A DNA stretch of 64,000 nt, from contig JAUHWT010000019.1 of the NCBI GenBank assembly GCA_030427145.1, positions 1 to 64,000 of the forward strand, in the 5' to 3' direction. The notes beneath the pieces are model-generated. The model was not told the DNA's origin. It saw only the letters and a list, made by a program, of their open reading frames with translations, and searched no databases. Below are positions 17,592 through 63,815 of the stretch, piece after piece. This stretch comes from Alphaproteobacteria bacterium (GTDB taxonomy: Bacteria; Pseudomonadota; Alphaproteobacteria; Rhodobacterales; Rhodobacteraceae). Every line of letters begins with the position of its first letter. The first letter of the stretch is position 1. The position numbers and the translations under genes were made by a program.

Positions 17592-17620
17592 TTTAGAAGA
17601 GACTCTGATACGGCCATCCC

Positions 17621-43809: not shown

Positions 43810-43841
43810 ATGGGAATGTCGGGTACCTTGAAAATCTATGA
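43698..43841 (+). CDS. Possible 47-residue leader peptide
   Basis: Starts MCVIHSLNKRCYGPH, with AGAAGGAG 9 nt upstream of the ATG, and ends 32 bp inside the following ATPase frame. It is Cys/Trp-rich and not recognised. It may be a translated leader or a chance frame; the ribosome site is the only positive evidence. Confidence 0.3.
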   Translation: MCVIHSLNKRCYGPHIPVTIPEWLRKCVQGMCVWVMWYGNVGYLENL

Positions 43842-44661
43842 CGATCATTTTGGACTGACGGAACGGCCGTTTACGCTGCTGCCCGATCCCGATTTCCTCT
43901 ACTGGTCCGACAACCATACCCGCGCCTATGCCATGCTCGAATACGGCATGCTGACCCATGCGCCGCTCACGGTGATCACCGGAGAAATCGGGGCGGGCAA
44001 GACCACGCTTCTGCGTCATCTGCTGCGCTCCCTGCCCGAGGAGTTCACCGTAGGGCTGATTTCCAACGCCCAGGGCAACCGGGGCGAGCTTTTGCACTGG
44101 GTTTTGATGGCTTTGGGCGTGCCCACCTCCAGCAACGCATCCTATGTGGAGCTGTTCGCGCTCTTTCAGGACTTCCTGATCGAGGAATACGCTGCCGGAC
44201 GGCGGACCATGCTGATCTTTGATGAGGCGCAGAACCTGGCGGTGGAGACGCTGGAGGAGCTGCGCATGTTCTCCAACATCAACGCCGACAAGGATGAGCT
44301 TATCCAGATGGTTCTGGTGGGCCAGCCGGAGCTGCGCGATCTTATCGCCCAGCCACGCCTTGTGCAGTTCGCCCAGAGGATTGCCGCGGAATACCATCTG
44401 CCGGGCATGACCGCCGAACAGGTTCAGGACTACATCAACCACCGGCTCAGCGTGGCCGGGGCCGATCATGAAATTTTTACTCCCGCCGCCTGCGAATGTG
44501 TGTATCAGGCGTCGCGGGGGGTGCCGCGGCTCGTAAACCAGATTTGCGATTACGCGCTGGTATACGCGTTTACCGATGGTAAGGACATTGTGGATGCCGC
44601 CGTGATTGAGCAGGTCGCGACGGATCGACGCATGCATGGCAATCTGAAACTGGCGGTCTGA
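43810..44661 (+). CDS. ExeA-like AAA ATPase (exosortase/EPS-associated)
   Basis: 283 residues. Starts near YDDHFGLTERPFTLLPDPDFL, the characteristic opening of GspA/ExeA-like and XrtA-associated ATPases. Walker A GEIGAGKTT lies at 58-66, Walker B MLIFDEAQNL near 137, and arginine-rich RGVPRLVNQICDYAL near the end is the typical sensor-2 region. No membrane segment, so cytoplasmic or peripheral. Homologues sit beside chain-length determinant genes in exosortase loci. The start is uncertain: ATG 43810, ATG 43816 or TTG 43828. Confidence 0.85.
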   Translation: MGMSGTLKIYDDHFGLTERPFTLLPDPDFLYWSDNHTRAYAMLEYGMLTHAPLTVITGEIGAGKTTLLRHLLRSLPEEFTVGLISNAQGNRGELLHWVLMALGVPTSSNASYVELFALFQDFLIEEYAAGRRTMLIFDEAQNLAVETLEELRMFSNINADKDELIQMVLVGQPELRDLIAQPRLVQFAQRIAAEYHLPGMTAEQVQDYINHRLSVAGADHEIFTPAACECVYQASRGVPRLVNQICDYALVYAFTDGKDIVDAAVIEQVATDRRMHGNLKLAV

Positions 44662-44737
44662 GGCCGCTTTCGGAAACATATCGGGTGGCCCGGCGCGCGG
44701 TCACCGGCAGGAACGTTACGGATGGCAGAGTAAAACG

Positions 44738-46342
44738 ATGGGCAAGCTGGATCTGAAATTCTACTGGGCGATATTTTTGCGCCGGTCGCCGTATTTTATG
44801 CTGGTGGCAGCCCTTCTGACCGCGATCGGGCTGACGGTGGCGTTTATCCTGCCCCCGGTCTACATCTCGCGGGCCTCGATCCTGGTGGAGCCGCAGCAGA
44901 TTTCCGGCAATCTGGTGCAGTCCACCGTGGCCATCGATCCCTATCAGCAGATCCAGATCCTGCAGCGCCGGGTGATGACCCGCGCCAGCCTGTTCGATCT
45001 GGCGCAGAAAACCGGCATTGCCGCGGACAACCCGGAGGCCACCACCGAGGACATCATCCAGAACACCGCCCGGCGCATCGTGTTCTCGGGCGGCGAGCCC
45101 CAGGAGGTGACCCGCAACGGACCGGCTCCGGAAGCGATCATGATCGGTGTCTCCTTTGAGGCCGAGGATGCGGCCCTTGCGGCGCGCGGCGCCAATGAGG
45201 TCGTCAGCCTCATTCTGCAGGAAAACCTGCGCAGCCGTACCAGCAAGGCCGAGGAAACCGTGCGGTTCTTCGAGGCCGAGGTCGAGCGGCTGAGCGCCGA
45301 GCTTGAGGAAACCTCCGCGGCCATTTCCGCTTTCAAGACCGACAATGTGGAAAGCCTGCCCGACAGTCTCGAAACCCGTCGCCAGCAGCAGTCCCTTGAG
45401 CAGGAGCGGCTTCTGGCGCTGGAGCGTGAGGAAAGCGCGCTGCGCAACGAGCGGGCCACCACGGTCTGGGTGTTTGAGCGGACCGGCACCACCGGTAATC
45501 TCGTGACCCGCAGCCCGGAGGAAACGGAACTGGAGGCGCTGAAAAGCGAGCGCATCAAGCAGCTTGCAGTCTATGCGCCCACCAGTTCGCGCATCCGCAT
45601 TCTCGACACGCGCATTGCCGCCCTTGAGCGGCTTGTTGAGGAGCAGCGCGCCACGCGTGTGGTTGAGGGAGGCGGGGATCTTGCCGCCGGCCCCAGTTCC
45701 GAACTTGAGCTTGAACTGGCCCCGATCGACGCCCGTCTGGAATTCATCGCCCAGGAAAAGGCCCTGATCGAACAGACGCTGGTGGATCTGCAGAGCTCCA
45801 TTCAGCAGACCCCGTCCAACGAGATGACCCTTGAGCGTCTGGAGCGTGAGATGGCCGGTCTGCGCGCCCAGCATGACAGCGCCACCTCGGGCCTTGCCCA
45901 GGCCCAGGCCGGTCTGCGTATCGAGCTTGATGCCCAGGGCGAGCGGTTCACGGTGATCGAGAACCCGGTCGAGCCCACCGGTCCCGAAAGCCCCAACCGC
46001 AAGCTGATTGCCATGGCCGGCATGGCCGGAGGTATTGGCGCGGGCCTGGGTCTGATCGTGCTGATGGAACTTCTCAACCGCAGCATCCGCCGTCCGGTGG
46101 ACCTGACATCGACACTGGGCATCCAGCCCATCGCCACCATTCCCTATATCCGCACCGCGGCCGAGGCGCGGCTGCGCCGGGGGCTGATCGTGGGGTCGCT
46201 TTTGTTCGTGCTGGTGGTGATCCCGCTGGGACTGTTCCTGGTGAACACCTATTACATGCCGCTTGATCTTCTGGTGGACCAGATCCAGGAGATCGTCCGG
46301 CCCGGGTCGGCCCCGGAAATTGCGGAACCCGCGCAGCAGTAA
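44738..46342 (+). CDS. Polysaccharide chain-length determinant (Wzz/GNVR type)
   Basis: 534 residues with TM1 at about 18-40 and TM2 at about 488-508, and a long periplasmic coiled-coil between. It carries PPVYISRASILVEPQQI near TM1 and the conserved FTVIENPVEPTGPESPN segment before the second half. Family: PCP proteins associated with exosortase loci. It controls polymer length together with the kinase-like ATPase 40 bp downstream. Confidence 0.9.
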   Translation: MGKLDLKFYWAIFLRRSPYFMLVAALLTAIGLTVAFILPPVYISRASILVEPQQISGNLVQSTVAIDPYQQIQILQRRVMTRASLFDLAQKTGIAADNPEATTEDIIQNTARRIVFSGGEPQEVTRNGPAPEAIMIGVSFEAEDAALAARGANEVVSLILQENLRSRTSKAEETVRFFEAEVERLSAELEETSAAISAFKTDNVESLPDSLETRRQQQSLEQERLLALEREESALRNERATTVWVFERTGTTGNLVTRSPEETELEALKSERIKQLAVYAPTSSRIRILDTRIAALERLVEEQRATRVVEGGGDLAAGPSSELELELAPIDARLEFIAQEKALIEQTLVDLQSSIQQTPSNEMTLERLEREMAGLRAQHDSATSGLAQAQAGLRIELDAQGERFTVIENPVEPTGPESPNRKLIAMAGMAGGIGAGLGLIVLMELLNRSIRRPVDLTSTLGIQPIATIPYIRTAAEARLRRGLIVGSLLFVLVVIPLGLFLVNTYYMPLDLLVDQIQEIVRPGSAPEIAEPAQQ

Positions 46343-46383
46343 CCGGTACAGACCGGCACTGCCGGCCGTTTAAGGAAGAGAGT

Positions 46384-47226
46384 ATGGAACGCATTCAGGC
46401 AGCCATCCAGAAGGCCAAGGGAAAACGCGGCGACGCTCCGGCCCGTGCCGGACGCCGTCCCGTGGGCGTGTTTGAGGCCTCCAGCACGACGGCGCGCGCC
46501 ACCAACGACCAGCAGGAGGCCAATCCGGCCTGGGACGCGCTGCCGGAGTTCGAACCGGATCCAAAGCTGATGATGAAAAACCGCGTTATCACCTTTGCCG
46601 ATACCGACCCGAGCCACACGGCCTTTGACATGCTGCGCACCCGTATTCTGCGGACCATGCGCCAGAATGACTGGGTGTCCCTGGGCATCACCTCCCCCAC
46701 GGCGAGCTGCGGCAAGACCATGACCAGCCTGAACCTCGCGTTCAGCCTGGCGCATCAGCCGGATCTGCGCACGGTTCTGGTGGATCTCGACCTGCGCCGC
46801 CCCATGGTGGGCAAAACCCTTGGTATCGAGCGGCCCCAGTCCATGGCCAGCATGCTTCAGGGCACCCGTCCCATTGTTGAGAATTTTGTACGCCACGGCT
46901 CAAACCTGGCGATTGGCACCAATGCGGCACCGATTAAGAACTCCTCGGAGCTTCTGCTGAATGCGGCCACCACGGAAGGCGTTGCGCGGTTGCGTTCGGC
47001 CTTCCAGCCTGATGTAATTATCTATGACCTGCCGCCCATGATGATGAGTGATGACGCCATGGCGTTTTTGCCGCATATGGACTGCATGCTTCTGGTGGCG
47101 GGTGCGGAAAAAACCAGTCTTGATGAGGTTGATACCTGCGAACGGGAGCTTTCCGAGAACACCAATCTGCTTGGGGTTGTTCTTAACCAGTGCAGGTATA
47201 CTTCTGATTCGTACGGATACTACTGA
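46384..47226 (+). CDS. BY-kinase-like capsular/EPS ATPase (CpsD type)
   Basis: 280 residues, the cytoplasmic partner of the Wzz-like protein. The P-loop region is SPTASCGKT (residues 104-112), the Walker A' VLVDLDLRRP (131-140), and Walker B IIYDLPPMMMSDDA. The P-loop has Ser and Cys where the family normally has Gly. The tail SYGYY supplies a small tyrosine cluster at the extreme C-terminus, as in BY-kinases. It likely cycles phosphorylation to control polymer export. Activity should be regarded as uncertain. Confidence 0.88.
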   Translation: MERIQAAIQKAKGKRGDAPARAGRRPVGVFEASSTTARATNDQQEANPAWDALPEFEPDPKLMMKNRVITFADTDPSHTAFDMLRTRILRTMRQNDWVSLGITSPTASCGKTMTSLNLAFSLAHQPDLRTVLVDLDLRRPMVGKTLGIERPQSMASMLQGTRPIVENFVRHGSNLAIGTNAAPIKNSSELLLNAATTEGVARLRSAFQPDVIIYDLPPMMMSDDAMAFLPHMDCMLLVAGAEKTSLDEVDTCERELSENTNLLGVVLNQCRYTSDSYGYY

Positions 47227-47302
47227 TCCTGCCGGGAGGATGTTTTTGTGCGGCGGTCGTCCCGGACCGGCCGGCCCCTGATCATATGCAGGTGGTGAAA
47301 CA

Positions 47303-48856
47303 ATGCTTTATTCCGGACTGAGCGAGGCCCCGCTGTCCGAACGGGTTTTTGATGTATGTATTGCCGGAGGCGGACCTGCCGGTATTACCCTGGCGCGGCG
47401 GCTTGCATCCCAGGGCATGGATGTTCTTCTCATGGAGGGGGGCGGTCTGGAACTGACCGTGGACTCCCAGGACCTCTATGACGGTAAAAACATTGGTCTC
47501 GACTATTATGAGCCCTATACGGCGCGGCTCCGCTATCTGGGCGGGTCGTCCAACCACTGGGGCGGGCGCTGCCGGGAACTGGATGCGATGGATTTCCATT
47601 CCCGCCCCTATCATCCCCTGAGCGGCTGGCCGATTGAGAAGGCTGAACTCGACGCCTATGCCGAGGAGGCGGATGCCATTCTCGAGATCGGCCCGCGGTC
47701 CGCGGTTCCGGACACGACCGTGAAACTGGGTGGGGAGACGGTTGAGCGTCTGACCTACCGTCACAGCCCGGTGAAATTTCTCGACAAGTATCTCGATGAG
47801 CTGAAAGCGGCCCCGAACATCCATGTGGTCATCAACGCGAACCTCGTGGACCTGGAACTGAACGAGGGGCTCAAATCCGTTCGTCATGCGGTGTTCCGCT
47901 CCCACGATCCCGGGGAGCGGGAATATCGGATTTCGGCCCAGGCCTTCTGTCTGTGTATGGGCGGGCTGGAAAATCCCCGTTTCATGCTCAACGCCAACCG
48001 CCAGGTGCCGGCGGGGATCGGGAATGAAAATGACCTTGTCGGGCGCTATTTCATGGAGCATCCGCATTTCGTCATTGGGGACATCCTGTTTGAGGATACG
48101 GTGCCCGAGACGGAAAACTATTCCATGCCGATGGATTTCCAGGACGACCGGGAAATGCTCAATTTCTCCGTGCGCGTGGTGACCGAAAAGCTGCATCTTC
48201 TGCGGGAGGTCAGCCGTACGGCCCTGTGTGCCACTTCTTTTGGCGAGCGACTGGCCCGGGCCGTGCTGGGGCGCAATATCGACTGCGACGTGGGCGGCAC
48301 GGATGAGTATTTCGATGCGCGCGCCTTTCTGGCGGACAATCCGGTCGGTCACGTGCAGGTCAATACCGAACAGTTCCTCAATCCCGACAGCCGGGTGACG
48401 CTGCTCGATGAGACCGATGCTCTGGGCATGCGGCGCATTGCGGTGGACTGGCAGCTTGCCGATGAGGATTTCCATACCATGCGTGTGGCCGGGGAATGGA
48501 TCGGCCAGCGTGTTGCCGCCGAGGGGCTTGGCCGCGTGCGCCTGCGCGACTGGCTTCTGAACCGGGACATTGCGCCGCCGGGCGCGGATGAGGAAATGCC
48601 TGGCGGGCATCACCACATGTGCACCACCCGCATGAGCGACGATCCCAAACAGGGGGTGGTTGACCGCAACTGTCAGGTGCATGGGGTCGAAAACCTCTTT
48701 ATCGGTGGCTCGAGCGTGTTTGCCACCGCCGGGCATGCCAACCCGACCTATTCCATCGTGCAGCTTGCGCTGCGCCTGGGAGATCATCTGGGAGAGGCGC
48801 TGCAGCAGCAGTCCATGAATGTGGGACGCGGGCTGTCTCCGGCGGGACGGACATGA
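47303..48856 (+). CDS. GMC-family FAD-dependent oxidoreductase 1
   Basis: 517 residues. N-terminal FAD fold VCIAGGGPAGITLARRL (GxGxxG at 22-27), then YLGGSSNHWGGRCRELD (the GGSSxxxx FAD loop), and a C-terminal GMC part with HHHMCTTRMSDDP and SVFATAGHANPTYSI, where the last His and Asn are the expected catalytic pair. There is no signal peptide. Family members oxidise sugar or alcohol hydroxyls. It sits 77 bp after the BY-kinase gene and may oxidise a sugar of the polymer or its precursor. Confidence 0.88.
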   Translation: MLYSGLSEAPLSERVFDVCIAGGGPAGITLARRLASQGMDVLLMEGGGLELTVDSQDLYDGKNIGLDYYEPYTARLRYLGGSSNHWGGRCRELDAMDFHSRPYHPLSGWPIEKAELDAYAEEADAILEIGPRSAVPDTTVKLGGETVERLTYRHSPVKFLDKYLDELKAAPNIHVVINANLVDLELNEGLKSVRHAVFRSHDPGEREYRISAQAFCLCMGGLENPRFMLNANRQVPAGIGNENDLVGRYFMEHPHFVIGDILFEDTVPETENYSMPMDFQDDREMLNFSVRVVTEKLHLLREVSRTALCATSFGERLARAVLGRNIDCDVGGTDEYFDARAFLADNPVGHVQVNTEQFLNPDSRVTLLDETDALGMRRIAVDWQLADEDFHTMRVAGEWIGQRVAAEGLGRVRLRDWLLNRDIAPPGADEEMPGGHHHMCTTRMSDDPKQGVVDRNCQVHGVENLFIGGSSVFATAGHANPTYSIVQLALRLGDHLGEALQQQSMNVGRGLSPAGRT

Positions 48857-48920
48857 GCCCAGGGCTGCATGGACCGCGGAAATTTGTTTGCACATTTATA
48901 TGCGAAAGGTGGATTACATC

Positions 48921-49088
48921 ATGAAAACACGACGCGGATTTTTCCGGTTGCTGCTCTCCGGGCTGCTGGCATCCCGGTTTGCTCCGGCGGCCTGGGCCTC
49001 ACCGGTTCCGGAAAAGGGTTTTCACATGGTCAATGGCTGGATTTTGACCGACAGCGATGTTGAGGTGCTGAGCCGTTACGAAAGCTGA
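48921..49088 (+). CDS. 55-residue Tat-signal micro-protein
   Basis: Starts MKTRRGFFRLLL with the twin-arginine motif TRRGFF, then a hydrophobic run and an AWASP cleavage region, leaving about 30 mature residues (HMVNGWILTDSDVEVLSRYES). AAGGTGG 9 nt upstream supports the start. It lies between two paralogous GMC genes on the same strand. It resembles the small Tat-carrying partner subunits of membrane sugar dehydrogenases in position and size, but is shorter than those. Confidence 0.65.
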   Translation: MKTRRGFFRLLLSGLLASRFAPAAWASPVPEKGFHMVNGWILTDSDVEVLSRYES

Positions 49089-49207
49089 GGTTCAATGCCG
49101 TGCCGGGGGGCGCGGCGCCGGTGGACCGGAAAATGACCCGGTCCGCATTCCGTAGCGGATGGTGATGTTCCGGACGGGAGTTTCTTTTCTGTTGGGGTGA
49201 TCCTTTA

Positions 49208-50770
49208 ATGATTGTCGATGCGGGTGTCGTTGACCGGACGCTGTTCAGCCGGGTCTTCGATGTATGTGTGGTGGGTGCGGGACCGGCGGGGATAACGCTG
49301 GCCGAGAGCCTTGCGGCTCAAAATCTTGACGTGGCGCTGATGGAGGCCGGGGATCTGGAGTTTACCTCCGAATCCCAGGAGCTCTATGAGGGCGATATTG
49401 TTGGGATGGACTATTTCGATCTGGATGTGCCGCGTCTGCGCTTTTTTGGCGGGACCTCCAACCACTGGGACGGGCGCAGCCGGAGCCTTGATCCCCATGA
49501 TTTCCGTCCGCACCCCTGGCACGCCCTGAGTGGCTGGCCGGTTACGGCGGCGGAACTGGACCCGTGGCGGGCGAAGACGGATGAGATCCTGGATCTGCCA
49601 CCCCGGGACGTGTTTCCCGATGAAATCGTCGAAGGGGCCGAGGATGATCTGCGCTCCATCCGGTTTCGGCGCAGCCCGCCCACCCGGTTTAACACCAAAT
49701 ACCGGGACGGAATGGCGGCCTCCGGGCGCATTACCCTGGTGGTCAATGCCAACCTGGTGGATCTGCGGCTCAATGAGGCCCTGACCACGGTGGAAACTGC
49801 GGTTTTCCGCTCCTACGATCCGGATGACACCGGATTTACCGTCCGGGCCCGGGCTTTCTGCCTGTGCATGGGGGGGCTGGAAAATCCCCGCTTTCTGCTC
49901 AATGCCCGCAGTCAGATGCCTGCCGGTATCGGCAACGCCCATGACCAGGTGGGCCGGTATTTCTCCGAGCATCCCACCTACCGGATCGGGGAGGTGCTCT
50001 TTGAGAACGGGGCTCCGAAATCCCGGGGATATGCCCCGACACCGGAGATGATGGACCGGCTGGAGGTGCTCAACTCCAACATCCTGCTGCTCAGTGAGGG
50101 GCTGGATCCCGGGACCGAGGCCCTGCGCAGCCTGGCCTGTTCCGCGGATTTCATGGAGGAACTGGCACGCAAGGTTCTGGGCCGGGGTTTCGACTGCGGG
50201 GTCGGCGGTCTTTCGGCGTATTTTGAGGTGCGCCGGTCGGAGGCCTGGCATCATGGCGGTCTTGGGATCATCATTGAACAGGCGCTCAACCCCGACAGCC
50301 GCGTGCTGCTTTCCGACCGCAGGGACAGGTTTGGACATCAGCGGATTGCGCTCGACTGGCGTCTTGCGCCGCTTGACATCCACACCATGCGTGAAACCGC
50401 CGTGGTCATGGGGCAGTATCTGGCCTCGGAGGGTATCGGACGGCTGCAGGTCGCTGACTGGCTGCTGGCGGAGCCCGCGCGGGTGCCGGGCCTGTGGGAT
50501 GAGGGTCACGAGGTGGCGCTGAGCCATCACATGTGCACCACCCGCATGAGCGACAGTCCGAAAGAGGGCGTGGTGGACCGCAACTGCCGGGTACACGGCA
50601 TGGAAAACCTCTATATTGGCGGCTCGAGCGTGTTCGCGACCGGTGGACATGCCAACCCGACCTGGACCATCGTGATTCTGGCGCTGCGTCTTGGGGATCA
50701 TCTTGGGCGAAACCTTTCGGAACACGCCCTGAAGGTTGATGATCCGGCGGAACGGCTGGAGCCGGCATGA
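49208..50770 (+). CDS. GMC-family FAD-dependent oxidoreductase 2
   Basis: 520 residues, full-length paralogue of the enzyme at 47303. FAD fold VCVVGAGPAGITLAESL, FFGGTSNHWDGRSRSLD, and C-terminal HHMCTTRMSDSPKEGVVDRN plus GGHANPTWTI with the catalytic His/Asn. The first GMC has GGRCREL where this one has DGRSRSL, so the substrate sites differ. No signal peptide. Both GMC enzymes may act with the Tat micro-protein between them. Confidence 0.88.
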   Translation: MIVDAGVVDRTLFSRVFDVCVVGAGPAGITLAESLAAQNLDVALMEAGDLEFTSESQELYEGDIVGMDYFDLDVPRLRFFGGTSNHWDGRSRSLDPHDFRPHPWHALSGWPVTAAELDPWRAKTDEILDLPPRDVFPDEIVEGAEDDLRSIRFRRSPPTRFNTKYRDGMAASGRITLVVNANLVDLRLNEALTTVETAVFRSYDPDDTGFTVRARAFCLCMGGLENPRFLLNARSQMPAGIGNAHDQVGRYFSEHPTYRIGEVLFENGAPKSRGYAPTPEMMDRLEVLNSNILLLSEGLDPGTEALRSLACSADFMEELARKVLGRGFDCGVGGLSAYFEVRRSEAWHHGGLGIIIEQALNPDSRVLLSDRRDRFGHQRIALDWRLAPLDIHTMRETAVVMGQYLASEGIGRLQVADWLLAEPARVPGLWDEGHEVALSHHMCTTRMSDSPKEGVVDRNCRVHGMENLYIGGSSVFATGGHANPTWTIVILALRLGDHLGRNLSEHALKVDDPAERLEPA

Positions 50771-50872
50771 ATGTCCCGGCCCCGTTCGGGGGCCGGTGAA
50801 TACCACGGCCTTCCCCTGGCGGAAGGTCCTCACGCCCCTGGGCATCGGAAATGACGGAGACGGGACCGGAAC

Positions 50873-51592
50873 ATGATCATCTCACACGAACACCGGTTTG
50901 TTTTCGTGCATATCCACAAAACCGCGGGTGAGGCGGTGACCCTCGCCCTCCTGCCCCGCATGGGGCGGGGCCTGGCGCTTGGCGGCACCACCTGGGGCAA
51001 CGTCAAAAACCTCTGGTACAGCCGGGCCAAAGGCGTCTCCAAGCACAGTGACGCGGCGGAGATCCGGGCGTTTACGGGTCCGGAGACCTGGGAGAGGTAT
51101 TTCACCTTTGCCTTTGTCCGGCATCCCTTTGACCGGGCCCTGTCGTTCTACAGCTATCTGGGCCAGATGTCGGACCGGCGCGAGGGCCCGGGCGTGCGGA
51201 ATTTTCTCTACGGCATGCCGTTTTTCAACCGGGGCGATCCGCGCGGCTGGCCTGGGGTGCAGGCGTACCGGGAGGCGGAGGATTTTTCCGCCTTTATCCG
51301 CCATCCGAAATTTGTGGCCGACCCTGGATCCAATGCCCAGGCGGATATCCTCTGCGACGGGGAGGGGCGGATACTGGTGGACTTTGTGGGCCATTTCGAG
51401 CGGCTGAACGATGATTTTGCGGAAGTCGCCAGACGCATTGGCATGCCTGACCTGAAACTGCCCATGCACAATGCCTCCGTGCGCTCCCGGGCCCGGACCA
51501 TGGCGGCGGCGGATCAGGAGCTTTTGCGGGAGTTTTATGCCCGGGATTTCGAGGCTTTTGGCTTTGATACGGCCGGATGGGAATTGCCCTGA
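50873..51592 (+). CDS. Sulfotransferase family protein 1
   Basis: 239 residues. The N-terminal FVFVHIHKTAGEAVTLALLP is the 5'-phosphosulfate-binding loop of family 2-type sulfotransferases, and FAFVRHPFDRALSFYSYLG is the 3'-phosphate motif. It would transfer sulfate from PAPS to a carbohydrate hydroxyl in the cytoplasm. Same strand as the GMC genes, 100 bp downstream. Confidence 0.85.
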   Translation: MIISHEHRFVFVHIHKTAGEAVTLALLPRMGRGLALGGTTWGNVKNLWYSRAKGVSKHSDAAEIRAFTGPETWERYFTFAFVRHPFDRALSFYSYLGQMSDRREGPGVRNFLYGMPFFNRGDPRGWPGVQAYREAEDFSAFIRHPKFVADPGSNAQADILCDGEGRILVDFVGHFERLNDDFAEVARRIGMPDLKLPMHNASVRSRARTMAAADQELLREFYARDFEAFGFDTAGWELP

Positions 51593-51680
51593 GCGGACCG
51601 TTGTGGTCTGAATTGCCCAAGGCGCCGGGGCGGAAAATCAGCTCCGGCGCCTGAGTGTGGACAAGCTGGATGCCCCGAAC

Positions 51681-52592
51681 ATGACCGATGCCCAAACATC
51701 CGCGCCACGGCCAAACATCTTTGTGGTCGGCGGCTCAAAATGCGGCACCACGAGCCTCTACCGCATGTTGCAGCTGGCCGATGGCATCGGCACCTCCAAT
51801 ACCCGCAAGGAACTGCATTACTTTTCCGCGCCCGAGATCGTCCAGCGTCTGGCCGCACCCGGCGATGAGGGGGTCGCGAAACTGGTTTTGCGGGATGAGG
51901 CCGATTACCTGGCGGAGTTTTCGCATCTGCCCGCCGATATGGCCAATATCGTCGATGTCTCGCCTAGCTATCTGCAAAACCCGCAGGTGCCCGCGCGCAT
52001 CCGGGATTTCGCACCGGAGGCCCGGATTGTCATCTTTTTGCGCAATCCGGTGGGCAAGGTGTTTTCCCAGTACGTGCATCTGTGGTCCTCGGGGCAGGAG
52101 ACCCTGCCCTTTGAGGAGGCGTTCGACAAGAGTACCGAACGCCGGGAAGCCGCGTATTCGCCCATGTGGGATTACCGCTCAGGTGGTTTTTATGCCGGAC
52201 ATCTGCGGCGCTACCTGGACCTGTTCGGGAAGGACCGGGTTCGCGTGGAGATTTTCGAAGAGTTTTTCGGACCCGATCCCGTGGCCCAGAACGGGCTCGC
52301 CGATTTCATGGGTATCCGCTTTGCCGAAGGTCCGCCGCCCAAAATCAATGTCAGCGGTCGGGTCAAATCCCCGCTGATGAAGGCCGTGCTTGGCAACAGT
52401 GCCCTGAAAGGGGCGTTCCGGACCCTTGTGCCACTCTCCCTGCGGGACCGGCTCTCGGGGGCCATCCGCGGCTCGGTACAGACGGAAAAGCCCAAGATCA
52501 GTGACGTCATGCGGGCCCGTCTTGAGGATCTGTACCGCGATGATGTGGCCGAGGTGGAGGCCATTCTGGGCCGCAGGATCGGCTGGTTTTAG
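51681..52592 (+). CDS. Sulfotransferase family protein 2
   Basis: About 303 residues from ATG 51681; a GTG at 51657 is possible. 5'-loop FVVGGSKCGTTSLYRML and 3'-motif IVIFLRNPVGKVFSQYVHL are both complete. This is the classical sulfotransferase (PF00685-type) arrangement used on carbohydrates and small molecules. Last gene of the plus-strand polysaccharide run that starts at 43.8 kb. Confidence 0.87.
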   Translation: MTDAQTSAPRPNIFVVGGSKCGTTSLYRMLQLADGIGTSNTRKELHYFSAPEIVQRLAAPGDEGVAKLVLRDEADYLAEFSHLPADMANIVDVSPSYLQNPQVPARIRDFAPEARIVIFLRNPVGKVFSQYVHLWSSGQETLPFEEAFDKSTERREAAYSPMWDYRSGGFYAGHLRRYLDLFGKDRVRVEIFEEFFGPDPVAQNGLADFMGIRFAEGPPPKINVSGRVKSPLMKAVLGNSALKGAFRTLVPLSLRDRLSGAIRGSVQTEKPKISDVMRARLEDLYRDDVAEVEAILGRRIGWF

Positions 52593-52833
52593 CCCGTTTG
52601 ACCCCAGTGGTCTGATTTTTCTGTATTTTTGGCCGGCTACGCGATTTTTGGCCAAATGGTTTCACCCTCTCACACAGGGGTGAAGACTGAACACCGCTCC
52701 GTGATCAGGCGAAACAGTTTGGGCATTTGATGAGTATTGTTTCCATGAGAGCCGCGCAGGCTTCCCCATCCGGGACCGGATTTACACGGTCCCGGGTGGT
52801 CAACCGAAACACTGCCCTGAGGGAAAAACCGTT

Positions 52834-53274
52834 ATGACCAGCAAGTTCGCAATCGCATTCGCCACCATCGCCGCCCTTTCCGCCACCGCACCGGCCTTTG
52901 CCGGACCGCAGTCGAAAGAGGGTCTGACCCTTAACCAGATCGCCATTGAAAGCTACAACTCCGGCCGCTCCGCCCAGGACCGCCAGCCCCTGTCCATCGA
53001 CCGCAACGGTTCCCCGGCGCTCGAGGCCCAGGCCATTGCCAGCTACAACAACGGCAAGAACGCCAGAAACCGTCAGGAAATCACCTCCACGGGCGACATG
53101 GAGGTCGCCTCCCGCGCGGTTAATCCCGGCAGCCCCGCTGACAGCCAGCTGATCGCCTCCGCAGGTCTGACTGCGGAAGAGGCCGAAGGTCTGACGCTCA
53201 ACGAGATTGCGGCCTTCAAATACAACAAGAACCGCTCCCGGCATGACCGTCAGGGCGTTCCCGCGGTCAAATAA
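52834..53274 (+). CDS. Secreted small protein with three internal repeats
   Basis: 146 residues with a signal peptide (ending APAFAG). The mature part holds three related blocks: GLTLNQIAIESYNSGRSAQ, LEAQAIASYNNGKNARNRQ and GLTLNEIAAFKYNKNRSRHD, each followed by a DRQ- or RQ-like end. The pattern resembles DUF4148-like periplasmic proteins but the family call is weak. A strong terminator follows. Function unknown. Confidence 0.75.
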   Translation: MTSKFAIAFATIAALSATAPAFAGPQSKEGLTLNQIAIESYNSGRSAQDRQPLSIDRNGSPALEAQAIASYNNGKNARNRQEITSTGDMEVASRAVNPGSPADSQLIASAGLTAEEAEGLTLNEIAAFKYNKNRSRHDRQGVPAVK

Positions 53275-53312
53275 TCCGGGTCGGGCGGATTTCCTCCGCC
53301 GGTCCTGACATG

Positions 53313-53350
53313 AAAAAGCCCCGGTTCCGAACTCGGACCGGGGCTTTTTT
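53313..53350. terminator. Bidirectional terminator
   Basis: AAAAAGCCCCGG and CCGGGGCTTTTTT form a stem around a 13-nt loop, between the secreted repeat gene and the convergent SDR gene. Confidence 0.9.
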
Positions 53351-53363
53351 GTCTTTGCCGGCA

Positions 53364-53993
53364 TCAGTTTGAGATGCCCACGGCCCGGTGAAGGTAGCGA
53401 AGATCGCTCAGCTGACCCGCGAGGAAGCCGGCCACGTCGGCACGCGGGATTTTCAGCGTCAGGGCCCGGTCGCCGGGTTTGATGTCCTCCCGGAATCCGC
53501 CTTTGGCAGGACCGTCGACGAAGGCGCCGGGGCGTACAATGGTCCAGTCGAGGCCGCTGGCGCGCACCATGACCTCCTGCCGTTCATGGTCAAGGAATAC
53601 CGGCCGCAGGATCAGGCCGAACATGATGCGCTTCCAGAAGAAGTTGAGGTTGCTCCAGCTCTCATGCGCCCCCAGGGTCGACTGGCAGATCAGGCGACGG
53701 ATCCCGTGTTCCCGCATGGCTTCCATAACGTTCAGGGTCCCCTCCGAGCGGATCCGGCTTTTGCGCGACATGCCCGCGCCGAGCGTGATCACCACCGCGT
53801 CATGACCGGGCAGGGCGCGGGACACGTCCTCACGGGACATGGCGTCGCCCGCCACGCGGGAGAGGCGGGCCGCATCGATTTTCAGTTTTTCCGGGTTGCG
53901 GGCAAAGGCCGTGACCTCATGCCCGTCCTCCAGCATCCGCGTGACGGCGGGGGCGCCGACGGTTCCGGTGGCTCCGAAGACGATGACTTTCAT
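53364..53993 (-). CDS. NAD(P)-binding SDR-like protein (NmrA/atypical epimerase family)
   Basis: 209 residues. MKVIVFGATGTVGAPAV is the atypical SDR glycine motif, followed by VVITLGAG and the QSTLGAH segment. No YxxxK is obvious, so it may bind NADPH without classical dehydrogenase chemistry, as in NmrA or BLVRB-like proteins. It is divergent from a TetR gene with operator palindromes between, so the TetR protein probably represses it. Confidence 0.82.
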   Translation of the reverse strand: MKVIVFGATGTVGAPAVTRMLEDGHEVTAFARNPEKLKIDAARLSRVAGDAMSREDVSRALPGHDAVVITLGAGMSRKSRIRSEGTLNVMEAMREHGIRRLICQSTLGAHESWSNLNFFWKRIMFGLILRPVFLDHERQEVMVRASGLDWTIVRPGAFVDGPAKGGFREDIKPGDRALTLKIPRADVAGFLAGQLSDLRYLHRAVGISN

Positions 53994-54026
53994 TTTGAGG
54001 CTCCTTTTCAGATTACTTTACACCAT

Positions 54027-54075
54027 GTCAAGTTGACGGATTGTGGATTACCCCTTAACTTGACATCATGTCAAG
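54027..54075. promoter_or_regulatory. TetR operator palindromes
   Basis: Two inverted repeats in the 74-bp divergent spacer: GTCAAGTTGAC (54027-54037) and CTTGACATCATGTCAAG (54059-54075). Both use the half-site TTGAC. The second overlaps the tetR start codon, so binding would also limit tetR expression. Confidence 0.7.
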
Positions 54076-54652
54076 AAAAAATGAATCCACCCGGAACCGC
54101 ATCCTCAAATCCGCCTGGACCCTGCTCGAAAAAGGGGAGGGCCCCGTGCGCATGAGCGATATTGCCAAAGCCGCCAAAATCAGCCGCCAGGCGCTCTACC
54201 TGCATTTTCCCAACCGGGCGGATCTGCTCATCGCGGTGACGCGTCATCTCGACGAGGTGCATGACGTGGAGGCGCGGCTGGCGGAAAGCCGCATGGCCCC
54301 AAGCGGGGTCAAGCGGCTTCAGGCCTGGATCGCGGCCTGGGGGGATTACATTCCGCAAATTCATGGAGTGGCCCGGGCCCTGATGGCGATGCGGGACCAT
54401 GACGCCGAGGCGCGCGCCGCCTGGGAGGGGCGTATGGCGGCCATGCGGGAGGGCTGTGCCGCCGCCGTTGCGGCGCTGGAGGCGGATGGGGACCTGCGGG
54501 AGGGCCTGAGCCCGGTGGAGGCCACCGACCTGCTCTGGAGCCTTCTGTCCGTCCGGGTCTGGGAGCAGCTCCGCCTGGACTGCGGCTGGCCCCAGGAGCG
54601 TTACATCGCGGTCACCCAGGAGACGGCGCGACGGGCTCTGGTCGGGGGGTGA
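54068..54652 (+). CDS. TetR-family transcriptional regulator
   Basis: 194 residues. N-terminal TetR helix-turn-helix: MSDIAKAAKISRQALYLHFPNRADLL. The C-terminal ligand domain is unassigned. It likely represses itself and the divergent SDR gene through the overlapping palindromes. The effector is unknown. Confidence 0.9.
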   Translation: MSRKNESTRNRILKSAWTLLEKGEGPVRMSDIAKAAKISRQALYLHFPNRADLLIAVTRHLDEVHDVEARLAESRMAPSGVKRLQAWIAAWGDYIPQIHGVARALMAMRDHDAEARAAWEGRMAAMREGCAAAVAALEADGDLREGLSPVEATDLLWSLLSVRVWEQLRLDCGWPQERYIAVTQETARRALVGG

Positions 54653-54685
54653 GGACGGAATGCGCAGCTTTCCCCATGCGCGGGT

Positions 54686-55666
54686 TTATCGCTCCTGGGG
54701 GGCGTGAACCGGCCGTTTTGCGGTCAGGGGCTCGAACCAGGAAACCGTTCTCTCCAGCCCCTCCTCCAGTGTCACGGTTGGCTCCCAGCCAAGTTCGGTG
54801 CGGGCGCGCCTTATGTCCGGGCGGCGCTGCAACGGGTCGTTCTCCGGGAGGGGGCGAAACACGGTCCGTGACCTCGATCCCGCCAGTTCGATCACCAGTT
54901 TGGCCAGATCGCGAATGGTAACCTCATCGGGATTTCCAACATTTACCGGTCCGGTCACGTCGTCAGGCGCGTTCATCATCCGGATCATGCCGTCAATCAG
55001 GTCATCCACGTAACAGAAGGACCGGGTCTGACTGCCGTCGCCGTAAATGGTGATGTCATTGCCCAGAAGCGCCTGAACGATGAAATTGGAAATCACCCGG
55101 CCGTCATTCGCCTGCATTTTGGGGCCGTAGGTGTTGAAAATCCGCATGACCCTGATGCGCAGGTCATGCTGACGATGATAGTCGAAAAACAGGGTTTCGG
55201 CGCAGCGTTTGCCCTCATCGTAACAGGAGCGTGGCCCTATGGGATTGACGTGTCCCCAGTAGTCTTCCGTTTGCGGGTGCTGCTGCGGGTCGCCGTAAAC
55301 CTCGGATGTGGAGGCCTGGAGGATTTTTGCGCCCGTCCGTCTCGCCAGTTCCAGAACGGTGATGGCCCCAAGGACCGAGGTTCTGGTCGTGCGCACGGGG
55401 TCCTGCCGGTAGTGGACCGGTGAGGCGGGGCAGGCGAGATTGTATATCTCATCGACCTCCACCTCGAGGGGCATCGTTATGTCATGCTCAATCAGTTCAA
55501 AGTTCGGGCGCCCGAGCAGATGCGCGATCCCCGACCGGCACCCGGTATGAAAACTGTCGATGCAGAGCACGTCATGGCCTGCCACAACGAGGCGCCCGCA
55601 CAGGTGACTGCCAAGAAACCCGGCTCCACCGGTGACCATTATCCGTTTGGTGGAAAAGCCGTGCAA
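54686..55666 (-). CDS. UDP-glucuronate decarboxylase-like NAD-dependent epimerase/dehydratase
   Basis: About 326 residues. Extended [16 protein letters not shown] (NAD), [11 protein letters not shown] (Ser), and [13 protein letters not shown] containing the Tyr-x3-Lys pair; the whole pattern [17 protein letters not shown] is diagnostic of UDP-xylose synthases. It would decarboxylate UDP-glucuronate to UDP-xylose for the polymer. The start is uncertain: a TTG at 55666 is a compromise between the first good ATG (55639) and an upstream TTG at 55759. Confidence 0.85.
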
Positions 55667-55805
55667 ATCATCACCCTGGTGTCCCCCGTAGGGCCCGGCC
55701 CGTAACGATGGACGACCCTCACCCCTGATTGTGGTAAAGGCTTTTCCCGGGTTCGACAAACCGGACTTTCAGATTTTGGCCTCAGGGAGGCGCGGGCGCG
55801 TCTTT

Positions 55806-56759
55806 TCACCAGCCCGACTGCCAGTCCCTGCGGCGTTGCCAGATGGCGCCCCAGGTGGCGGCGCTTTCCTTTAGCGAGGGGCGTCCGGTCAGGGTGGCGC
55901 CGGCCTTTGTGGCGATGAGGCGGGTCAGCGGCATCATGGAGAAGACGAACCGGCCCAGAGGTTTCTGCCAGGCCGGGAAGTGGCGGTTGATCAGGCCCAT
56001 TTTGCCCGCCAGAGTTTTGACCATCCGGTCGGAGAGGACTTTTTCGGAGGCGCCGCCATAGTGAATGATGGTGGCGTCCGGCGTGATTTGCGGCCGGGCT
56101 CCGGTTTTAATGGCGCGCAGGCACAGATCCGCCTCCTCGCCATACATGAAGAAATCCTCGTTGAAGCCGCCCAGTCGGTCCCAGTCCCCGCGGCGCATCA
56201 GAAAGAAGCTGCCCTGGACGATGTCGACCTCCCGCACGCTGTCGCGCTGCCAGCCGCCATAGCGTTCCGCATTGAAGATTGCGGAGTTGGGGAAGAGGGA
56301 TGTCAGGCCGGCGGTGCGGCAGAACACGTTCCACAGCGTCATGCGCTGCCAGCAGGAGGCGGGATTGAGGCTTTTGTCCCCAAAGAGCGTGCGTCCGCCC
56401 CAGATGCCGGCTCCGGGCGTTTCACGGGCGAATGCCACCAGGTTGTCCACCGCGTGGTCGAGCACGACCGTGTCGGGATTGAGCAGCAGGATATACTCCC
56501 CGCGCGCCTGCTTTGCCGCCATGTTGTTGCCGCCGGCAAAGCCCAGATTGTCCTTGCGGGCCATCAGGTTGATGTGGGGAAATTCCTCCGAGATCGCCTC
56601 GGCGGAGCCGTCCTGGCTGTTGTTGTCCACCACCAGAACCTCATGGGGGATGGTGGTCTCGCGCTCCAGGCTGCGCAGACACTCAAGGGTCATCTCACGG
56701 GTGTTGTAGGAGATCACCAGAACGGAGACCACGGGATCCTGAACGGGGCTGTCTGACAT
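55806..56759 (-). CDS. Family 2 glycosyltransferase (rhamnosyltransferase-like)
   Basis: 317 residues with VVSVLVISYNTREMTLECL, VVDNNSQDGS, LLLNPDTVVLD (DxD-like) and RLGGFNEDFFMYGEEADLCLR, the signature of WbbL-type rhamnosyltransferases. A short hydrophobic stretch near the end may anchor it. It ends 10 bp from the exosortase stop side and is co-directional with the exosortase gene. Confidence 0.87.
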   Translation of the reverse strand: MSDSPVQDPVVSVLVISYNTREMTLECLRSLERETTIPHEVLVVDNNSQDGSAEAISEEFPHINLMARKDNLGFAGGNNMAAKQARGEYILLLNPDTVVLDHAVDNLVAFARETPGAGIWGGRTLFGDKSLNPASCWQRMTLWNVFCRTAGLTSLFPNSAIFNAERYGGWQRDSVREVDIVQGSFFLMRRGDWDRLGGFNEDFFMYGEEADLCLRAIKTGARPQITPDATIIHYGGASEKVLSDRMVKTLAGKMGLINRHFPAWQKPLGRFVFSMMPLTRLIATKAGATLTGRPSLKESAATWGAIWQRRRDWQSGW

Positions 56760-56769
56760 TGGTATCCGT

Positions 56770-58374
56770 TTATTCGGGAACGAACCTGGGCAGATAGTCG
56801 ATATGGGCTGTCAGGAAGTTTTTCAACCGCTCATCGGCCTGGGCCTCGGTTTCCTCCTCACCGATCGGCGTAATCAGGCGCACGACGCTGATGTCGCGGC
56901 GGCCGCGCAGCAGGCTGTCGGAAACGGTGTGGAATTTGGTGACCATGTCATTGGCGGTGCTGCGGCCCCGGCCCTCGAACCAGAAATAGACGAGCTGTTT
57001 GCTCAGGCCCTTCTGGATGATGGCGCGGTTGAGTGTCAGGCCGCCAAAATCCGTACCCGGCAGGTCGACCCGTGTGGGGTCGATGCGGAACACCTCCCAG
57101 CCGCCGGCGGGCAGACAGGCGGCGGGGGAGTGAATGTAGGAGCCGTCGGTTTCCTTGTGGTAATAGGCGACGAAGAAATCCACCGGTGCGGCGGCAGCCG
57201 GGCTTACGAAGTTTGACGACAGAAAGTCATCCGCGCCGAGGAATGCCTCGACCTCCGGGTCGAGCAGGGTGCGCTCCCCCCGCCATTCACCGGTGTTCAT
57301 GGGAAAGAGCACGAAGCTGTCGCGTTCGGGTGTGACGGAGGCGCGGGCGGGGGCGAGAACCCAGGCCGCGGATATGGCGCAGGTCAGGAGCGTCATGGCG
57401 ATCAGCGCGCCTGAGGCGGGAATGGTGAAAACCCGGCGGAACTGTTCACCAAGGTTGGAGAAATCCATGTCGAGCGCATCGCCCAGATGGCGTTTGTCCC
57501 CGGACAGGCGCTGCATCAGAACCGCCATGGCGAAAAGGATGGCGATGCAGGTGAGGAAAATCACCCAGCCCTCGAAAACGTGCAGAAAGCCCTCGGCCTG
57601 CTCGATGCCCTTGCGGTCCACCAGAAAGCCGATCACCCCGATGCGGAAGGAGTTCATCAGAACCGCGATCGGCACCGCCGAGAACAGCAGCACCAGCTTG
57701 TGCCAGACCGGTCCGCGGTAGAGCACGGCAAAGACATAGGTAAAGCTCATGATCGGGAACATGTAGCGCAGTCCCGAACAGGCCTCGGCCACCTGAAGCT
57801 TGTAGGTGCCGAGATCAATGACATTGCCTTCCAGATAGACCGGAACCTGCAGCAGCCGCAGAAGCCAGACGCCGATTTCGGAGGAGAGGAACTGCAGCGC
57901 GATGGTGACGTTCCAGTAGATCATGTTGGGCAGAGGCAGCATGAACACCAGGTGCAGCACCGCGGGCCAGAACAGAATGCCGCGCGACCAGCCAAATCCC
58001 ACCAGAACAAGCCCGCCGATCCAGACAATGAGTCCGTAGGTGACAATGTCCGGAATACCCACGAGGTTGCCGGCAATGGCGGCCAGAAGCCCCAGGGCGA
58101 TAAGCGCAAGCCCTGGCCAGCGGTCGGTGACCGGCCCGGTGGGGGGCGGTACGGCCTTAAGCTCGCGCAGATACATGTAGAAGGACAGAACCGGAATGAC
58201 CGGACCGTGGCTGTATTCGGGCCGCGACCAGGCCTCGCCCAGATGCACAAGGCCGGACCAGAAGACGGGCAGGGCGCCGAGGCAGCACAGCAGGAACAGG
58301 CCAAAGCCGTAAGTGTCGAGCGGGGTTCCCAAAAATACGGGATGCCGGTGCCGCGTTTCGGCCGTGAATGACAT
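56770..58374 (-). CDS. xrtD: Exosortase fused to EpsI domain (XrtD type, VPLPA-specific)
   Basis: 534 residues from ATG 58374 with GAGGT upstream. About eight N-terminal membrane segments carry the exosortase catalytic set: Cys199 in EACSGLRYM, Arg244 in NSFRIG and His265 in HVFEGW. YSHGP at 54-58 is also typical. Residues about 320-534 are the EpsI/DUF3485 domain with HSPAACLPAGGW. This fused form is the one that pairs with VPLPA-CTERM substrates; three such proteins are encoded at 5.1, 32.7 and 34.2 kb. It would cleave the tag at the inner membrane during export. Confidence 0.92.
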   Translation of the reverse strand: MSFTAETRHRHPVFLGTPLDTYGFGLFLLCCLGALPVFWSGLVHLGEAWSRPEYSHGPVIPVLSFYMYLRELKAVPPPTGPVTDRWPGLALIALGLLAAIAGNLVGIPDIVTYGLIVWIGGLVLVGFGWSRGILFWPAVLHLVFMLPLPNMIYWNVTIALQFLSSEIGVWLLRLLQVPVYLEGNVIDLGTYKLQVAEACSGLRYMFPIMSFTYVFAVLYRGPVWHKLVLLFSAVPIAVLMNSFRIGVIGFLVDRKGIEQAEGFLHVFEGWVIFLTCIAILFAMAVLMQRLSGDKRHLGDALDMDFSNLGEQFRRVFTIPASGALIAMTLLTCAISAAWVLAPARASVTPERDSFVLFPMNTGEWRGERTLLDPEVEAFLGADDFLSSNFVSPAAAAPVDFFVAYYHKETDGSYIHSPAACLPAGGWEVFRIDPTRVDLPGTDFGGLTLNRAIIQKGLSKQLVYFWFEGRGRSTANDMVTKFHTVSDSLLRGRRDISVVRLITPIGEEETEAQADERLKNFLTAHIDYLPRFVPE

Positions 58375-58699: not shown

Positions 58700-59500
58700 A
58701 TGCGTACTGTTTCAATGTTTCTGACCACGGCGACCCTTCTGTCCACATCGGCTCTGGCCCAGGCGGACGGGCATGCGGGACACATGGCGGTTGGTCTAAG
58801 CGGCGACAGGACGCTGCACATGATCGACAGCGGCTCGGCGGCGGTAACCGCCTCCATGGAGGTTGAGGGTGTCGACAGGCTTCTTGGCATTGATCTGCGT
58901 CCGGCCACGGGTCAGCTGATTGGAGTAACCGACGGGTTCGACATCGTGGAAATTGATCCCGCCAGCGGGGCCGTGACAAAAATCTCGACCATGGACATGG
59001 AACTGCCCGTGATGGATGGCCAACCGGTGATCGTGGATTTCAACCCCAAAGCCAACAAGCTGCGCTTCATGACCGGCACGACCAATCACCGCGTTGATAT
59101 CGAGAGCGGCGCGGTCACGGTGGATGGCAGCCTTGCCTTTGAGGGCGCCGACATGCATGCCGGTGAGGCGCCCGATATTGTGGCCGCGGCCTATATCAAT
59201 TCGTTTGGCCAGCCCGATGCCACGGCGATGTATGACATCGACGCCACGATCAATGCCGTGATCCAGCAGACCTCGCCCAATGACGGCACACTGGCGGCCA
59301 TTGGCAAACTGGGTGTCGGGGCGGCGGAAAGTTACGCTTTTGACATCGCCACGGATGAGGCGGGCACCAACACGGCCTGGCTGGCCACCGGTGGCATGCT
59401 GCACACGGTGTCGCTTGAAACCGGTGAGATTCAGGACAGTTGGGAGCTGACCGGTGCGGAGGCGCCTTTGCGCGACATCACGTTTCTGACCGCAAAATAA
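58700..59500 (+). CDS. DUF4394 domain protein
   Basis: 266 residues, signal peptide (ending ALAQA), then a WD-like repeat body with LLGIDLRPATGQLIGVTD, VDFNPKANKLRFMTGT and YAFDIATDEAGTNTAW. Such extracytoplasmic proteins are often encoded with an ECF sigma factor and its anti-sigma partner, which follow here. AAAGGA precedes the start. Function unknown. Confidence 0.85.
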   Translation: MRTVSMFLTTATLLSTSALAQADGHAGHMAVGLSGDRTLHMIDSGSAAVTASMEVEGVDRLLGIDLRPATGQLIGVTDGFDIVEIDPASGAVTKISTMDMELPVMDGQPVIVDFNPKANKLRFMTGTTNHRVDIESGAVTVDGSLAFEGADMHAGEAPDIVAAAYINSFGQPDATAMYDIDATINAVIQQTSPNDGTLAAIGKLGVGAAESYAFDIATDEAGTNTAWLATGGMLHTVSLETGEIQDSWELTGAEAPLRDITFLTAK

Positions 59501-59522
59501 CGGCTGGAAACAGGAACGGGAG

Positions 59523-59542
59523 CGGCCCGCCCTGGCGGGCCG
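59523..59542 (+). terminator. GC-rich hairpin after the DUF4394 gene
   Basis: CGGCCCGCC and GGCGGGCCG with a 2-nt loop, followed by GTTCC without a T-run. It may attenuate transcription into the sigma gene rather than end it. Confidence 0.4.
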
Positions 59543-59692
59543 TTCCTGGCCGGTGGGGTCATGTCATGTGTGTTCAGTGAACGGGGTAATACTGTTTTTT
59601 GGCCTCACCGGCCGTTTGTGCCGAATACGGAAGAGGGCTTTGCCCCGCAATCCGTTTTCAATATGATGCCGGTTCCCAGAGGGGAGGGACGG

Positions 59693-61722: not shown

Positions 61723-61761
61723 GCGATTTTCCTGGTGCGTGTTTGTCCCCGAGGGGAGGGG

Positions 61762-63464: not shown

Positions 63465-63815
63465 GAACCCCGTTCCCGGTTGATCCGGCCGGGGCTTTGG
63501 TTGGCGGAAAAACGGCTGAACCGGAGCCGTGCCGGCTGGCGGACGCATCCCGCGCGTTCCGATAAGAATACACCAGCCTGGGTCTGCATGTCCGCGTCTC
63601 CACCACCCTCAAATCAATCCCCGTTTCCAGGGTACAACCCGTAATCCCGTCGCGTCCCATTATACCGGGATTCCGGTGCGATATGTCATGTACATTACAT
63701 ACAGGGGTAATCGGAGTAAAAGGTGTTCTTCCGGTAAATTTGCCCCTGGCCAAACGCCGGGAGGAAATCCACCCGCTCCCGGAAGCAGTGTCCGGGGCGG
63801 GTGGCTGATCCGGTG
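63465..63815. other. Intergenic region upstream of the WecG-like operon
   Basis: About 350 bp without a recognised gene. A moderately AT-rich stretch (63680-63725) with TGTACATTACATACA is the likely promoter zone of the WecG-like operon. Confidence 0.4.

Follow-up and report, generated by a model that had tools for sequence, protein, structure and literature searches.

Gene pairing and conservation point to a 55-residue twin-arginine microprotein as a probable Tat escort of leaderless GMC oxidoreductases at a Rhodobacteraceae exosortase locus

Co-export of an enzyme through the twin-arginine translocation (Tat) system by a signal-bearing partner is already known, for larger subunits. The present work concerns a 55-residue twin-arginine protein, termed here the microprotein, encoded between two genes of GMC oxidoreductases that have no signal peptide. 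The genes lie in a 64,000-nucleotide stretch of DNA from a bacterium of the Rhodobacteraceae (the window; positions 1 to 64,000 of contig JAUHWT010000019.1, assembly GCA_030427145.1). The glucose dehydrogenase of B. cepacia (BcGDH) has a Tat hitchhiker small subunit that is required for folding and secretion (PMC6719666). The mature gamma subunit has 121 residues and five helices, and its hydrophobic C-terminal tail, which includes a tryptophan, covers the interface 'like a lid' (PMC6719666).

The microprotein of the window is probably a Tat escort ('hitchhiker') that has been reduced to a signal and a docking tail and would export one or both of the leaderless GMC enzymes. What is observed is that the two kinds of gene are paired and stay paired in relatives, that related pairs are under purifying selection, that the GMC enzymes lack signals and resemble in fold GMC subunits with known Tat partners, and that the genome has a gene for TatC; docking, export, service to both GMC enzymes and the substrate are inferred. 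The three genes are arranged as follows.

47303..48856, + strand: GMC1, leaderless GMC oxidoreductase of 517 residues (PF05199, 86.7 bits)
48921..49088, + strand: the 55-residue Tat microprotein (open reading frame), with the twin-arginine signal TRRGFFR, a hydrophobic stretch and the tail FHMVNGWILTDSDVEVLSRYES
49208..50770, + strand: GMC2, leaderless GMC oxidoreductase of 520 residues (PF05199, 84.3 bits)

GMC1 stops 64 nt before the microprotein and GMC2 starts 119 nt after it. The sequence AAAGGTGGA sits upstream of the microprotein ATG.

The conserved part of the locus is the Tat microprotein together with its GMC enzyme, which the initial annotation of this DNA named and left undeveloped. 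Most of the close homologues of these GMC enzymes, which range across Rhodobacterales, SAR92, Mesorhizobium and Pseudomonas, show this pairing. As a direct query against 198 genomes of the family sample, the window microprotein had only one convincing match (E 9.9e-7), a small gene of the sister species G130 that overlaps a GMC start by 8 nt; the search was therefore moved to the neighbours of GMC genes. The GMC set was pooled from several homologue searches, one contig scan giving at least 20 loci. With a strict script, a twin-arginine open reading frame (ORF) with a Gly-Trp (GW) tail was found directly upstream of 26 of the 38 GMC genes with a profile score above 440, and of none of the 36 at 330-440 or the 11 below (0/47 distant GMC genes in all). 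Among other ORFs taken as a control, 2 of 567 were preceded by such an ORF, and one of these two positives is the true escort of genome G276, placed downstream of its GMC gene. The strict count excluded as duplicates the loci L140, L141, L142, L146 and L151 and, for L110 and for L162, a second copy; at L106 no hit qualified.

Three cases added by eye (L107, L111, L113) bring the positives to 29 of the 38, of which 24 were treated as microproteins and five as longer forms. The small ORF overlaps the GMC start in 17 of the 29; the remaining positives end within 15 nt of it, the window being exceptional at 119 nt. The nine exceptions among the 38 include window GMC1 and the GMC gene of G276, each with a microprotein just downstream, and downstream placement was found in the window (with respect to GMC1), G276 and G245. 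In a later phylum-wide sample of 13 further GMC genes, all seven with a score of at least 495 were positive and none of the six with a score of 449 or less. 'None' was rejected as a label for all lower-scoring GMC genes, several of them having a GW-tail protein downstream: a microprotein in L130, longer proteins in L223, L132, L125 and L137, and further cases in G198 and G234. Pattern matches upstream in L109, L137, L157 and L160 and downstream in L118, L095 and L105 seem to be chance hits and were kept out of the counts.

The escort-GMC pair of G130 (L067/L166) is flanked on one side by a repeat-rich protein of 1102 residues, RTX-like by eye, and on the other by an ORF that by eye resembles riboflavin synthase.

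The 55-residue protein is one of an apparently unnamed group of miniature GMC partners. Its members have a twin-arginine motif followed by a hydrophobic stretch, as judged by the motif alone. The shortest have 41-43 residues (G680, G031, G1116), lengths that hinge on the start chosen near the RR; from the first possible start, L143 and L148 have 119 and 113 residues. The tail motif is hhV(N/D)GW(I/V/L)Lxxx(D/E). In 39 tails aligned on the tryptophan, Gly stands at -1 in 37, Asp or Asn at -2 in 30, Leu at +2 in 33 and Asp or Glu at +6 in 32. The search itself demanded Trp with the next residue and restricted -1 and +2, which leaves -2 and +6 as the unselected positions. The 39 tails were a chosen list; the Trp-less L078 is not among them, nor are near-duplicates, L217, L218 and L220 for example. 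For the window tail, AlphaFold2 predicted a strand, an NG turn, a strand and a helix, the last 25 residues having block pLDDT values of 80-89; the prediction had a pTM of 0.36 and drew on only four sequences. No significant Pfam or NCBIfam match was obtained for the small proteins scanned; TIGR02811 matched one of eight microproteins weakly (E 0.055, not significant). Among the matches listed in open-licence literature, none describes a GMC-linked Tat microprotein, which is not proof of novelty.

Of 15 related microprotein pairs, 14 could be measured, and their ratios of nonsynonymous to synonymous substitution rates (dN/dS), 0.05-0.56, show purifying selection. That the small ORF arose by chance or has no function could be argued from the window copy, which matches no family model and whose own dN/dS is unmeasurable, with dS saturated. 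Given the homologue in the sister species, the dN/dS values of the other pairs and an enrichment far above that of control ORFs, this is hardly credible.

AxA-like sites, identified by eye, are present in many members, including AAWAS in the window protein and AHAAT in that of G130. Such sites speak against the microprotein being a permanent membrane anchor or an assembly or flavinylation chaperone and not an export carrier, as does the sequence SRRSFLK of G130, the textbook Tat motif. This role would agree with the members of G031, G680, G583 and G615, which by eye have a very short tail and, past the hydrophobic stretch, no AxA site; on balance it is unlikely as the sole function. It is compatible with the escort role, and the two are not exclusive. 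The twin basic residues of every listed member do not count as separate evidence, since they were a condition of the search.

GMC1 and GMC2 are 52% identical. In both, the flavin adenine dinucleotide (FAD) motif begins at about residue 17, which leaves no room for a signal peptide. The GxGPAG FAD-binding columns are present in the GMC alignment; H441 and N483 of GMC2 align with the His and Asn of 6a2u_B, and the position of N483 is Thr in the G130 enzyme. The nearest solved structure by sequence profile is the catalytic (alpha) subunit of BcGDH. The AlphaFold2 model of GMC2 (mean pLDDT 83.8) has as its best folds fructose dehydrogenase, namely the catalytic subunit of the Gluconobacter enzyme, and the alpha subunit of the BcGDH gamma-alpha structure (TM 0.64-0.67, 18-19% identity). 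Among nine aligned GMC enzymes there is no 3Fe-4S-type cysteine cluster, and the columns with at least five cysteines (21, 92, 349, 368, 502) stand isolated. In the GMC tree, built by a quick method with a midpoint root and with first-set enzymes scoring below 300 excluded, all 31 microprotein rows fall inside one branch of 38 rows (SH-aLRT 100). A scan confined to the first set of loci showed no GMC enzyme naturally fused to an escort.

Other GMC lineages have twin-arginine proteins of roughly 110-180 residues with the same kind of GW tail, encoded upstream in L108 and L115-L118 and downstream in L223, L132, L125 and L137. The longer proteins scanned had no significant Pfam or NCBIfam match. 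In a reverse test, a profile of the longer form found eight places in 210 genomes, seven of them with a GMC gene within about 1.5 kb. Without the profile's own three rows, four of five had one (a second copy in G380, and G284, G198 and G234), the exception being contig C77 of G276 with no GMC gene in reach. In the cases of G234 and of C77 in G276, Arg follows the tryptophan. The tails of L108, L115-L118, L223, L132, L250-L255 and L257, all beside GMC genes, are DGWxxSRTEA-like.

Of three haloarchaeal GMC homologues, two were scanned, and at both the neighbour in the corresponding position is a PF13618 small subunit. With PF13618 itself, no match at E up to 1 was found in eight of eight microproteins, nor any in three more microproteins and five longer GW proteins. 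Membership of the microprotein or the longer GW proteins in PF13618 as diverged forms was thus rejected on sequence; a relation at the level of the fold is possible.

A short conserved C-terminal motif beside oxidoreductases also suits a precursor peptide like those of ribosomally synthesised and post-translationally modified peptides, with the GW tail as the part oxidised by the GMC enzymes. This is very improbable: leaders are not usually Tat signals, the closest matches in fold are sugar dehydrogenases, longer GW proteins replace the microprotein beside related GMC enzymes, and what the haloarchaeal homologues have at this position is a small subunit of a known family.

Tentatively, the GW tail might be a portable docking tag, the mark of a superfamily of GMC-specific Tat escorts so far without a name, with longer forms in several GMC lineages and forms pared to as little as 41 residues in one clade. 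Its tryptophan may lie at the active-site mouth and hold the enzyme off while in the cytoplasm, in the way that the tyrosinase caddie puts a tyrosine into the active site of its partner. The 41-residue carriers would perhaps be the least machinery known for Tat co-export.

Several observations weigh against the escort reading. The microproteins have no similarity to PF13618, and the longer GW proteins have no profile similarity to the haloarchaeal gamma subunits (hhalign probability 0.4%). The fold match of GMC2 is only moderate (TM 0.64-0.67). A single Mesorhizobium-like cluster supplies ten of the 15 dN/dS pairs, and the pair of the window and G130 is saturated at synonymous sites. In the window, the microprotein lies 119 nt from GMC2, whereas the spacing in the other positives is close, and no escort precedes GMC1. 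For four GMC genes with a score above 440 (L121, L122, L076, L123), no escort was found on either side; L144 and L145 are second GMC genes of two-GMC loci with an escort only near the sister gene, and L078 has a Tat ORF that lacks the tryptophan. The score threshold of 440 was set after the data had been seen. Finally, four of the seven later positives (L216, L217, L218, L220) cluster with the known L088, so the later sample adds few independent lineages, and confidence in the escort role was lowered slightly from an earlier, somewhat higher level for this reason.

The escort genes of the window stand within a larger locus. From the ATPase through the second sulfotransferase (43810-52592) all genes are on the + strand, and from the autokinase onward the gaps between them are 64-119 nt. 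The other genes are as follows.

43810..44661, + strand: ExeA/XrtA-associated (PEP-CTERM-type) ATPase (TIGR03015, 276.6 bits, under the cut-off of 324.5)
44738..46342, + strand: Wzz-like polysaccharide co-polymerase, a chain-length protein (PF02706, 34.3 bits; TIGR03007, 191.9 bits, under the cut-off)
46384..47226, + strand: tyrosine autokinase-like P-loop protein (TIGR03018, 91.9 bits, under the cut-off)
50873..51592, + strand: sulfotransferase, Sulfotransfer_2 (PF03567, 55.6 bits)
51657..52592, + strand: sulfotransferase, Sulfotransfer_3 (PF13469, 52.1 bits)
52.7-54.7 kb: unmatched ORF, NAD-binding gene and TetR gene, between the GMC/sulfotransferase block and the xrtD side
54686..55759, - strand: NAD-dependent sugar-nucleotide epimerase/dehydratase (PF16363, 186.7 bits)
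55806..56759, - strand: family 2 glycosyltransferase (GT2), adjoining xrtD (PF00535, 82.2 bits)
56770..58374, - strand: XrtD exosortase fused to an EpsI domain, Met at 58374 (TIGR04152, 628.4 bits, cut-off 400)
60946-61722, - strand: sulfotransferase (PF03567, 35.4 bits)
61762-62679, - strand: sulfotransferase (PF00685, 42.6 bits)
62676-63548, - strand: WecG-type glycosyltransferase (PF03808, 154.6 bits)
5080-5871, 32711-33145 and 34243-34722, - strand: VPLPA-CTERM-tagged proteins (PVPLPxxxxLL...RRR), likely XrtD substrates

By Pfam and NCBIfam profile matches, the genes that the initial annotation had named were found in their places, and the Met at 58374 agrees with the end coordinate that had been given. 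Two corrections apply: XrtD-EpsI is present as a single fused ORF and not as two genes, and the GMC/sulfotransferase block is set apart from the xrtD side by the genes at 52.7-54.7 kb. The second sulfotransferase pair with the WecG gene is real but lies at 60946-63548, beyond the range that had been given. The VPLPA-CTERM proteins it had proposed also exist. Four tags in the genome exceed the cut-off, three of them in the window and the fourth on contig C21, so XrtD has likely substrates. The data support a locus of the exopolysaccharide (EPS)/XrtD type that has VPLPA proteins as well as sulfotransferases and the two GMC enzymes.

The initial annotation had further joined these parts into one XrtD-linked system making an oxidised and sulfated polysaccharide that carries VPLPA-tagged proteins. 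All the parts do lie within 20 kb. XrtD exceeds its cut-off in 45 of the 198 genomes of the family sample, and a close GMC2 homologue (GMC2 query, E up to 1e-40) occurs in 11 of the 198; a GMC gene neighbours xrtD in two of the 45, this genome and G162, and once more in G615 of a separate sample. Over 20 kb each, 20 xrtD loci of other genera, out of the 45 xrtD genomes, were searched by phmmer with the window's own proteins as queries (E up to 1e-4). The ATPase is kept at 13 of the 20, and none shows a GMC gene or a sulfotransferase, although remote sulfotransferases may escape such a search. In the sister species G130, the ATPase-Wzz-kinase-xrtD core stands alone, lacking the GMC/sulfotransferase block, and the GMC gene and microprotein lie on a different contig from xrtD. 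Because the block is missing from the loci of other genera and from the G130 core, it looks like accessory cargo of the xrtD locus. The comparison of gene order around xrtD in relatives, named in advance as a check, thus goes against a conserved linkage with GMC and sulfotransferase genes, and a conserved XrtD-GMC-sulfotransferase system was rejected on the 20 loci.

In L175 and L176 (G583, G615), two GMC genes, one with an escort, lie about 5 kb apart with an acyltransferase-like gene and a short-chain dehydrogenase/reductase (SDR) gene between them; in G615, GT2 and xrtD genes are also alongside.

The polysaccharide context bears on the same joint system. EPS-type genes were found near 12 of 32 GMC neighbourhoods other than the window, compared with one of 20 control regions. 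Hits to same-locus seeds and SDR-only loci had been removed; with the window the count is 12/33, the window scoring none as the seeds are its own. The 32 include L211 without an escort, L171 with a Trp-less form and six regions shorter than 16 kb. The SAR92 locus L087, the best parallel to the window, combines the ATPase, kinase, Wzz, Wzx, a sulfotransferase and an escort-GMC pair. On the other side, 20 of the 32 neighbourhoods have no EPS match to the seeds used, and a sulfotransferase is near only one. With these figures and the rarity of GMC genes beside xrtD, a single joint system is doubtful. In the open-licence match found for EPS, sulfotransferases and exosortases, a GMC oxidoreductase is not mentioned. 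Since EPS-type genes are more frequent near the GMC genes than in the controls and are found near only part of them, a polysaccharide substrate is plausible at the window and not in general. Sulfation needs a cytoplasmic donor. It would precede export, the GMC enzymes acting outside.

Beside xrtD (58700-60939, + strand) are genes for a DUF4394 protein, with a signal-like start and without a VPLPA tag, and then for an extracytoplasmic function (ECF) sigma factor and an RskA-type anti-sigma factor. Just past the window, at 66-72 kb of the contig (C17; L004 6287-7696 and 8450-11899), are an RTX repeat protein, an ABC transporter gene and a weak O-antigen-ligase-like match under the cut-off, so that the surface or polysaccharide region continues. 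Elsewhere in the window, GC content falls to 0.45 at 16001-18000, compared with about 0.6-0.67 in the remainder, and the 410-residue ORF inside this stretch (16082-17314) has no Pfam match. A 1421-residue ORF (6141-10406, + strand) has Pfam matches that resemble coiled-coil or repeat noise and is possibly a long surface or structural protein.

In the escort mechanism proposed, the tail would bind folded, FAD-loaded GMC2, and probably GMC1 too, in the cytoplasm, and the signal would carry the complex through the Tat translocase. The tail would remain with the enzyme: it would become a peptide subunit if the signal is cleaved off, or else tether the enzyme to the membrane. In the periplasm, the leaderless GMC enzymes would act on a hydroxyl of a sugar or glycan. 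At EPS loci like that of the window, the exported polysaccharide would be the likeliest substrate, with sulfation taking place earlier, in the cytoplasm. If this is true, there is a natural family in which the export partner has shrunk to a signal and a tail that is at most some tens of residues long, and the minimum content of such a partner becomes directly testable. A short tag might then export folded flavoenzymes. The signal-less GMC enzymes of this clade, otherwise read as cytoplasmic, would be periplasmic, and some would act on exported polysaccharide.

Among known systems, the XrtD/VPLPA-CTERM exosortase system is represented here by both TIGR04152 and the VPLPA tags, while its conserved neighbourhood does not include the GMC enzymes, microprotein and sulfotransferases of this locus. 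TIGR02811, the 'formate dehydrogenase region TAT target', is by its name also a tiny Tat-signal protein beside a redox enzyme, with a different partner enzyme. MelC1, the 'caddie' of Streptomyces tyrosinase, is likewise a small helper encoded beside an exported oxidase and in complex with it; that system differs in its copper enzyme and larger helper. Unlike gluconate and FAD glucose dehydrogenases, the proteins studied here have no PF13618 match and no 3Fe-4S-type cysteine cluster in the nine GMC enzymes, and, unlike the BcGDH type, the genes scanned with Pfam around the window GMC pair include none for a cytochrome c. The BcGDH gamma subunit, at 121 residues, is also larger than the microprotein, in which only some tens of residues can follow the signal. 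BcGDH is the system whose GMC subunit is nearest to the window GMC enzymes by profile and, together with fructose dehydrogenase, by fold. Its hydrophobic gamma tail has a tryptophan at the interface, and the microprotein tail is hydrophobic with a conserved tryptophan. The gamma subunit (6a2u, 8grj; Gluconate_2-dh3, PF13618), with those of the related gluconate and fructose dehydrogenases, is a separate twin-arginine partner beside a leaderless GMC enzyme, as is the microprotein here.

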